The notes under the pieces: generated by a model
Database searches by the model: none
What the model saw: the letters and a program-made list of their open reading frames with translations, nothing else
Told to the model about the DNA's origin: nothing
In this document: positions 16,653-17,878 of the stretch, piece after piece
Numbering within the stretch: position 1 is the stretch's first letter
Layout: the number at the start of each line of letters is the position of its first letter
Source of the DNA: Patescibacteria group bacterium
GTDB taxonomy: Bacteria; Patescibacteriota; Minisyncoccia; UBA6257; 02-FULL-45-10c
Assembly: GCA_018969615.1 (NCBI GenBank)
Contig: JAGWYA010000001.1
Location: forward strand, 1-54,566
DNA: 54,566 nt
Reading direction: 5' to 3'
Translations under genes and position numbers: made by a program

Positions 16653-16714
16653 ACCTTTGCTTTCAAGCCTCGTTTTGCTAGAGTAGGGAAGTATTTCATT
16701 GGGAGATCGTCTAA

Positions 16715-17095
16715 CTTGCCCCGCCAAACTGTACGCAGTATGGAATGCTATTTATACATACTTAAAAATGATTGGAATAGGTACTATACTGGTATTACAG
16801 AATTGGCGCCGCAAAAGAGGTTAGTGAAGCATAATAGAGGTGATGTTTTTTCAACAAAATTTGGAAGGCCATGGCAGATCGTCTATGTTGAGAAACATGT
16901 TGATATGGCATCTGCGCGCAAGCGCGAGAAGCAGATCAAAAGTTGGCATGGCGGAGAAACTTTAAAAAGATTTCTAGGCAAAGCTGCGGGATCGTCTAAT
17001 GGTAGGACATCGGCCTTTGGAGCCGAGTATCTTGGTTCGAATCCAAGTCCCGCAGCTTTGCCCGGAAAGAAAGGATCTAAGTTTGGCGGGGTGAA
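16715..17095 (+). mobile_element. Candidate element with 12-bp perfect inverted ends, carrying a GIY-YIG ORF and an intact tRNA-Gln
   Basis: ccccgccaaact (16719-16730) vs agtttggcgggg (17080-17091), exact reverse complements flanking the insertion in the split tRNA. Confidence 0.75.
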
Positions 17096-17099
17096 GTAG
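16740..17099 (+). CDS. GIY-YIG endonuclease domain protein; C-terminal tail reads through the tRNA-Gln gene
   Basis: CYLYILKNDWNRYYTGITELAPQKRLVKHNRGDVFSTKFGRPWQIVYVEKHVDMASARKREKQIKSW; tail SSNGRTSAFGAEYLGSNPSPA is tRNA sequence in translation. Confidence 0.85.
   Translation: MECYLYILKNDWNRYYTGITELAPQKRLVKHNRGDVFSTKFGRPWQIVYVEKHVDMASARKREKQIKSWHGGETLKRFLGKAAGSSNGRTSAFGAEYLGSNPSPAALPGKKGSKFGGVK
16985..17055 (+). tRNA. tRNA-Gln (anticodon TTG)
   Basis: TGCGGGATCGTCTAATGGTAGGACATCGGCCTTTGGAGCCGAGTATCTTGGTTCGAATCCAAGTCCCGCAG. Confidence 0.94.
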
Positions 17100-17200
17100 G
17101 ACAGCGGCCTTTGAAGCCGTCAATCATGGTTCGAATCCATGTCTCCCTAGCAAATTTGAAGTAGTTTCGAACGTCGAAGAGCTTCTAAAAATTACTTATT

Positions 17201-17878
17201 ATGGGAAAATATTCGGTTGATGACTTAAAAAAGATGATTCCAGGAGTGTCAGAAGAAAAATTTCTTGTAGTTATTTCAAAAGGAGTTTTAAAACTGAACG
17301 ACGAAGAAATAAATACTATAACTTTTGTTTTCTTTCTTTGTTTATTAGCAGAGCTTAATATGGGCGCAGTTCTAACTGAGCCCTGGAAGCAGATAGAAAA
17401 TATTTCTTCTTTTGAAAAAGTAAAAGAAGCAAAAAAGTTATTAAACGAATTTATAACTGATAAAAAATTTACTGAACCACCATTAGACGAAGTTCTTAAG
17501 GGTTTACCAAATGAAATTGCATCAAAAATTCGCGCAGTTGTTATCGACCGCTATCGAGATAAGTCAATACTTGATATGGATAATCTAAATACATTTGGTG
17601 ATAAAATACTAGCGTATCAAGCTATTAAATCAAAAAATAATGTTACAAAAATTCTTTGGATATTAAAAGGAATGCGAGATGATATAAGTCATGGCAGAAT
17701 TATGGAATTAAAATACGAAGGTCAATTGCTTGTTAATAGAAAAGTAAAAGAGAAGCTCCTTATTGATTACATGGAAGCTTTTAGTAATCCAGACCATACC
17801 AAGTCTAATTTAAGCAGTCATTTACAGTTTACAGAAGAGGAACATAGAGAGATACAAAGATTGCTTGGGATGTTATAG
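17201..17878 (+). CDS. AT-rich hypothetical protein with HEPN-like Rx4H motif
   Basis: All-helical composition; ILWILKGMRDDISHGRI; visibly lower GC than flanking genes. Confidence 0.65.
   Translation: MGKYSVDDLKKMIPGVSEEKFLVVISKGVLKLNDEEINTITFVFFLCLLAELNMGAVLTEPWKQIENISSFEKVKEAKKLLNEFITDKKFTEPPLDEVLKGLPNEIASKIRAVVIDRYRDKSILDMDNLNTFGDKILAYQAIKSKNNVTKILWILKGMRDDISHGRIMELKYEGQLLVNRKVKEKLLIDYMEAFSNPDHTKSNLSSHLQFTEEEHREIQRLLGML

Follow-up and report, generated by a model that had tools for sequence, protein, structure and literature searches.

The window, which is the whole stretch of DNA that was analysed, comprises bases 1-54,566 of contig C4 from a genome of 0.81 Mb that is 97% complete. On its forward strand, a gene for tRNA-Gln(TTG) is split within the D-loop. 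The 5' half of this outer tRNA (TGGGAGATCGTCTAA, 16700-16714) ends inside the D-loop, and the 3' part (17096-17149; Rfam RF00005, and ARAGORN on the joined halves) lies beyond an inserted element of 381 bp (16715-17095; CTTGCCCCGCC ... GGCGGGGTGAA), the exact edge of which is uncertain by a few bases. Between two terminal inverted repeats, the insert carries an open reading frame for a GIY-YIG nuclease and a second, complete tRNA-Gln(TTG). An earlier note, made from the sequence alone, had described the split tRNA, the exact 12-bp repeats, the nuclease ORF and the nested tRNA, and each of these pieces was found in place.

Anatomy of the split tRNA-Gln locus

The left terminal repeat (CCCCGCCAAACT, 16719-16730) and the right terminal repeat (AGTTTGGCGGGG, 17080-17091), both given on the forward strand, are exact 12-bp partners. 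None of 20,000 pairs of random 20-mers drawn from the window matched equally well, which rules out an inverted repeat arising by chance. The arms are flanked by CTTG on the left and TGAAG on the right, which the earlier note had missed, with the insert opening on CTTG-CCCCGCCAAACT and closing on AGTTTGGCGGGG-TGAAG. No clean target duplication was found at the D-loop edges of this copy.

The nuclease ORF (16740-17099, forward strand) begins with an ATG at 16740 and stops at 17097-17099, and its GIY-YIG domain of about 80 residues occupies 16740-16979. It matches Pfam PF01541 (E 4.3e-13), and its AlphaFold2 model (mean pLDDT 92.5) has the GIY-YIG fold. In alignment A1, residues Y6, Y16, G18, R27, H31, E63 and K67 are invariant, and the catalytic Y, Y, R, H and E are present. 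The closest relatives in sequence and fold, and the nearest with solved structures, are UPF0213 proteins (PDB 1zg2 and 1ywl; profile match to 1zg2, E 4e-16) and Slx1. The protein belongs to a UPF0213-like clade of the GIY-YIG superfamily. The window nuclease had no match in NCBIfam or PHROGs, and its relatives gave only weak matches to homing endonucleases in these collections. The GIY-YIG frame is the sole sizeable ORF of the insert, so the element is not filed under any known IS family; no known type of transposase (DDE, HUH, serine or tyrosine recombinase) was detected in the insert. In a tree of 129 nuclease sequences and 82 columns, the window nuclease clustered with two other Gln copies, L082 and L085 (99% SH-aLRT). 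This tree is poorly resolved, and therefore only label statistics were taken from it. The nuclease frame stays open, in the sense direction, through the inner tRNA-Gln in all three Gln elements that were read (the window at 16740-17099, L005 and L050), with a read-through translation of the form ..AGSSNGRT....LGSNPS/LGSIPG.., so the nuclease of Gln elements may carry a tRNA-encoded tail.

The inner tRNA-Gln(TTG) (16985-17056, forward strand) is called intact by ARAGORN and scores 64.8 bits in Rfam. Its acceptor stem is lengthened by a second inverted repeat that the earlier note had also missed (GGCAAAGC..GCTTTGCC; arms at 16971-16991 and 17048-17068), the tRNA and its complementary flanks together spanning 16971-17068.

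ARAGORN called the joined halves of the outer tRNA as tRNA-Gln(ttg), an outcome that the earlier note would have taken the lack of as a refutation. The 3' half alone was not called as a tRNA by ARAGORN and scored 36.0 bits with the Rfam tRNA model (RF00005, over 17088-17149; cut-off 29 bits). The joined molecule has a T-T mismatch at pair 1-72 of the acceptor stem and has lost two or three bases (TG or TGG) of the D-loop, and for these reasons the outer copy is considered degenerate and most likely dead.

Directly downstream of the broken tRNA lies a gene for a 225-aa protein (17201-17878). It contains an RxxxxH motif (RDDISH) and is possibly HEPN-like. No match was found in Pfam, NCBIfam or PHROGs, and the only PADLOC match was a weak one to a methyltransferase (E 0.0012).

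The host tRNA set and recurrence of the insert

In the genome that carries the window, 46 intact tRNA genes were found. Two of these are for Gln, one with anticodon CTG at C4:90652 and the other the inner tRNA of the insert, which is the only intact Gln-TTG tRNA found. This fits the proposal of the earlier note that the insertion was not lethal because a spare was supplied. Loss of the element would remove the only Gln-UUG tRNA, and it is inferred that the host is bound to the element for this reason. The two other GIY-YIG copies of this genome lie directly upstream of its sole Cys-GCA and its sole Ser-GCT tRNA.

The earlier note had proposed a search for an empty site. Of 16 genomes in the same family, 13 have a single Gln-TTG tRNA that fits the search pattern, and in these the gene is uninterrupted. 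No syntenic sister genome lacking the insert was found for the window locus; the relatives of the adjoining permease are all distant and out of synteny, so the window has no direct empty-site partner, and the uninterrupted Gln-TTG genes of the family lie at other places. The acceptor sequence of the inner tRNA, TGCGGGA, occurs in none of the Gln-TTG tRNAs of the family genomes, and that of the outer tRNA, TGGGAGA, was found in one of these genomes (G010). The inner tRNA shares 59 of 72 positions with its own outer copy, as compared to 64-65 of 72 with the inner tRNAs that elements of other families carry. This closer likeness suggests that the inner tRNA arrived with the element, although such horizontal arrival is inferred from sequence comparison and remains unproven. 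A stretch just after tRNA-Gln(TTG), ACCAGTCARCG.AGTATCGAGGGACC, is conserved in several members of the family (L209-L212 and L216).

The insert recurs. Among 289 genomes of the class, seven, the present one among them, have the exact junction, in which the tRNA-Gln D-loop is followed by CTTGCCCC, as compared to a single match for the reversed control pattern. The junction is seen in loci L081-L086 and L088. L005 is a one-base variant of the junction, and L083 and L088, at the two ends of one contig, were read as the same sequence. Further copies of the ends, which the earlier note had suggested looking for, are thus present in other genomes. The left arm is kept as CCCCGCCAAAT(T) in L081, L082 and L086. 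An apparently complete nuclease and an inner tRNA are present in L082; the nuclease is damaged or internally deleted in L081, L086 and L005, and is missing altogether from L083/L088 and L084. The flanks of the inner tRNA add 8-14 contiguous pairs to the acceptor stem in L005, L081, L082, L083 and L086, with differing sequences. In L085, a bare palindrome (CTTGCCCCGCC..GGCGGGGTGAAG) occupies the D-loop of the 5' fragment and is followed by a nuclease and a complete tRNA, and the dead 3' halves of L082 and L083 hold further bare palindromes in their anticodon and T-loops.

Mobility and target sites of the wider family

The window insert is one subtype of a much larger GIY-YIG family with palindromic ends that was not seen in the earlier note, and this family also targets start codons, promoters and other tRNAs. 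In a class-wide sample of 130 distinct GIY-YIG copies, 44 had an intact tRNA on the same strand 0-150 nt downstream and none had one on the opposite strand. In a hold-out sample drawn from other classes, the counts were 16 of 30 and none, respectively, so that the downstream tRNA was on the same strand in 60 of 60 cases in the two samples combined. At least 12 exact nt of the same tRNA were present on the upstream side in 24 of the 44 copies, as compared to 1 of 220 for tRNAs of other isotypes. These broken tRNA copies are often interrupted by palindromes, for example CCTGCCTGCCGGCAGGCAGG. For 23 of 43 tRNA-type copies, the amino acid served is the same as that of the closest nuclease from a different taxonomic family (shuffled mean 3.1, maximum 14 in 2000). 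On these label statistics, nuclease lineage tracks tRNA isotype, and the vertical inheritance of old pairs could add to the signal.

A flanking inverted repeat (score of at least 12) was detected at 50% of 126 copies, as compared to 2.6% of 387 control placements in the same loci. These repeats typically start with CCC and finish with GGG, and they are rarer outside the class (3 of 30 at the same threshold). Direct repeats of at least 4 bp mark the ends of 24 out of 49 repeat-bounded copies (7.5% with swapped flanks), and in 25 the right end coincides with the start codon of an ORF of at least 60 codons (as compared to 6.2%). Four repeat-bounded copies re-make a TTGAC -35 box. The elements sit where function can be re-made, at start codons, -35 boxes and tRNA genes with a spare. 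The limits of the elements are also visible in pairwise comparison: among 152 element pairs with at least 200 bp of DNA similarity, the similarity ran more than 20 bp past the repeat in 2.6% on the left and 0.7% on the right.

Mobility of the start-codon subtype is shown by empty sites. Within genus g74, the ruvB start of genome G127 is occupied by a 314-bp element, in which CCCAGTAAC...GTTAACTGGG lies between the flanks TTAATATG and TATGCTAAC; the element opens with CCCAG and closes with CTGGG. The same site is empty in G082 (TTAATATGCTAAC), the RuvB of which is 97% identical to that of G127, and likewise in G149 (RuvB 94%). At the start of pilB, it is G082 that carries an element, 89% identical to that of G127, and G127 that is empty. 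Both insertions show a TATG target duplication. This reciprocal presence and absence, together with the duplication, demonstrates that the family is mobile and that start codons are re-made at its insertion sites. It is important to note that this cleanest evidence, the TATG duplication and the empty sites, comes from the start-codon and not the tRNA subtype. The link between the two subtypes rests on their homologous nucleases, on the palindromic ends and on a graded series of intermediate forms, and it is from this resemblance that the mobility of the tRNA subtype is inferred.

Palindromes also occur alone. The pair CCCGTTAGA..TCTAACGGG has 18 occurrences without a nuclease, spread over four of the seven genomes tested, and its reversed control had no match in the seven genomes. 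The sequence CCTGCCTGCCGGCAGGCAGG occurs 10 times in the present genome and 22-25 times in two relatives. Several of its copies lie inside dead tRNA fragments adjoining an intact tRNA of the same kind, namely Ser-CGA, Glu-CTC and Ser-GCT in the present genome and Lys, Thr and Val elsewhere. The solo palindromes look like nuclease-less derivatives.

Several further observations were made among the loci. In L185 (G354), an RNase P RNA (RF00010 match from 1738) directly adjoins the right terminal repeat of a GIY-YIG copy (AGAAAGTGGGGGG) and is thus another structured-RNA target. In L015 (G006:C19, 1468-1677, minus strand), the GIY-YIG ORF is directly followed by 16S rRNA sequence (GTGCCAGCAGCCGCGGTAA), which places this copy inside the 16S rRNA. 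Start-codon elements (L053, L058, L093, L027 and others) introduce, ahead of the real gene start, an in-frame start that is false (ATGAATCCCGTT.., MNPVR..), and such starts probably explain many odd annotated N-termini in these bacteria. Near the GIY-YIG genes of L019, L020, L024 and L025 lies a different repeat, with variants of CCTGAGCTTGTCGAAGG / CCTTCGACAAGCTCAGG, that may represent another end family. L042 and L043, at the ends of G004:C17 and C7, are two 95% identical elements that each terminate a contig. This is expected if recent copies break the assembly, and copy numbers from drafts may be underestimates.

Origin of the nested tRNA and relation to known systems

The locus is probably a very small mobile element, made up of a GIY-YIG nuclease of about 80 residues and ends formed by the arms of a palindrome, that brought a replacement tRNA-Gln with it. 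Elements of the family measure about 270-480 bp, with GIY-YIG as their single protein and the two arms of a palindrome as their ends. In the mechanism proposed here, a tRNA would have been captured as cargo between the arms, and a copy with a spare tRNA-Gln(TTG) beside its nuclease would have inserted into the resident tRNA-Gln(TTG), within the D-loop, killing it and replacing its function. The nuclease would nick or cut both the target and the palindromic ends in their folded form. The element would then be pasted in, and in the start-codon and promoter subtypes this would leave a target duplication of 4 bp. The function of the target would be re-made at the right end (ATG or TTGACA) or brought as cargo (tRNA). 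The nuclease-free palindromes would be non-autonomous derivatives. Slx1 is a structure-specific nuclease that acts on branched DNA and works with Slx4. Its activity suits a role in hairpin processing, and the folded palindrome is perhaps recognised by the present nuclease in the same manner. We know of no mobility among UPF0213 proteins. That the GIY-YIG protein does the cutting is inferred, as is the order of events, and no evidence shows that it, rather than another enzyme, drives movement. The idea of the earlier note that an endonuclease element broke a tRNA while supplying an isoacceptor withstood every test applied to it and is supported, with the driving role of the nuclease an inference only.

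The position of the nuclease beside tRNA genes resembles that of SegB. SegB of phages T4 and T6 is a free-standing GIY-YIG endonuclease of the tRNA region, enriched next to phage tRNAs, which cuts within tRNA genes, drives duplication of tRNA segments and promotes the spread or amplification of tRNA genes (PMC13096335). If the present nuclease acted in this way, it would cut tRNA genes and spread by recombination with the adjoining tRNA; the nested and duplicated pieces would be repair scars and the palindromes an unrelated REP-like repeat. The 44 of 130 copies directly upstream of a same-strand tRNA meet this expectation of adjacency, and many relatives consist of a broken 5' tRNA, a nuclease and a complete tRNA without clear terminal repeats. 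However, terminal inverted repeats are present in half of the copies and target duplications in half of those tested, and DNA homology stops at the repeats. Palindrome arms of the window type bracket nuclease and tRNA together, and the insertions at unrelated start codons with an empty-site partner resemble transposition and not allelic homing. Terminal inverted repeats, target duplication, palindromic derivatives and a nested rescue tRNA are not described for SegB in the part of the source available (PMC13096335), and the present nuclease differs in being a bare domain of about 80 residues. Homing of this kind is thus an unlikely account of the locus. Allelic gap-repair spread without ends or duplications was rejected for the repeat-bounded subtypes, but not for the tRNA copies that lack clear repeats.

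It was also considered whether the outer tRNA is functional, the insert being removed at the RNA level, like an intron or as in a split tRNA, and the halves being joined. The halves fold as tRNA-Gln when joined, the terminal repeats could bring them together, and rRNA genes of these bacteria carry introns (PMC11270868). The lost D-loop bases and the T-T acceptor pair speak against function, as does further damage to the outer 3' half in relatives, where it is broken by palindromes or truncated (L082, L083, L084 and L086). Rfam detected neither a group I or group II intron nor any other ribozyme in the window, and a group I or II intron is ruled out, with no intron family in the scan of window or locus. 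A working outer tRNA is accordingly very improbable. A further alternative is that a tRNA array was duplicated in tandem and decayed, the nuclease gene and repeats being present by chance, or that the locus is misassembled. This would account for two Gln-TTG tRNAs with 59 of 72 positions in common but is strongly disfavoured and barely credible, given the same junction, ends and internal order in six other sampled genomes and the L005 variant, the greater likeness of the inner tRNA to element tRNAs of other families, and the strand-specific tRNA association in both samples.

The mobile element favoured here was compared with other known systems. REPtrons and TIRtrons likewise have one small nuclease gene between palindromic or inverted repeats, many solo palindromes with the same ends and probable hairpin processing (PMC3733652). 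The RAYT protein is an HUH tyrosine transposase, whereas the only protein of the present elements is GIY-YIG, and REP elements are not described as nested tRNA-rescue insertions (PMC3733652). Membership of the REPtron/RAYT group was rejected, since the palindromes are present without an HUH Y1 transposase. Rickettsia palindromic elements are similar in being inserted in genes without destroying them and are described as lacking a transposase (PMC3733652); they differ in having no known dedicated nuclease. The rRNA genes of the same host group (CPR) hold insertions that encode GIY-YIG proteins and fit neither the group I nor the group II type of intron, and GIY-YIG was judged to lie outside the context of homing spread (PMC11270868). 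The main text of that study does not contain "tRNA", "inverted" or "palindrom" (PMC11270868). With a copy seen in 16S rRNA in L015, these insertions very probably belong to the same family.

Features of IS or MITE-like elements are met as well, in the terminal inverted repeats of the window and of half of the family and, for the family, in target duplications and the empty sites at ruvB and pilB. The element works like an insertion sequence and also like a homing endonuclease, yet every known family tested has a defining feature that it lacks. To our knowledge, no bacterial transposable element has a GIY-YIG nuclease as its only protein. No description of GIY-YIG elements of this family was found in the open-access literature searched, and the family is apparently widespread in these very small bacteria and undescribed. 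On balance, and with considerable reservation, we favour a new class of mobile element, in which a bare GIY-YIG domain of about 80 residues is the sole transposase acting on palindromic ends, with 4-bp duplications and solo-palindrome derivatives. Its targeting would follow a rule of doing no harm or replacing what is broken (start codons, -35 boxes and tRNA genes), with lineages specialised on one tRNA isotype that carry the host's only copy of that tRNA and so become indispensable.

If this is true, GIY-YIG enzymes would join the short list of DNA transposition chemistries, and the smallest bounded elements (about 280 bp) would be among the smallest autonomous transposable elements. The family would explain the multi-copy GIY-YIG genes of Patescibacteria (CPR) genomes, the GC-rich palindromes in and beside their tRNA genes, the non-intron GIY-YIG insertions in their rRNA and, probably, many of their wrongly annotated N-termini (MNPVR..). 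These host genomes keep about one gene per tRNA, and the nested tRNA would represent selfish DNA that the host can no longer do without, since it brought a substitute for the essential gene that it broke.
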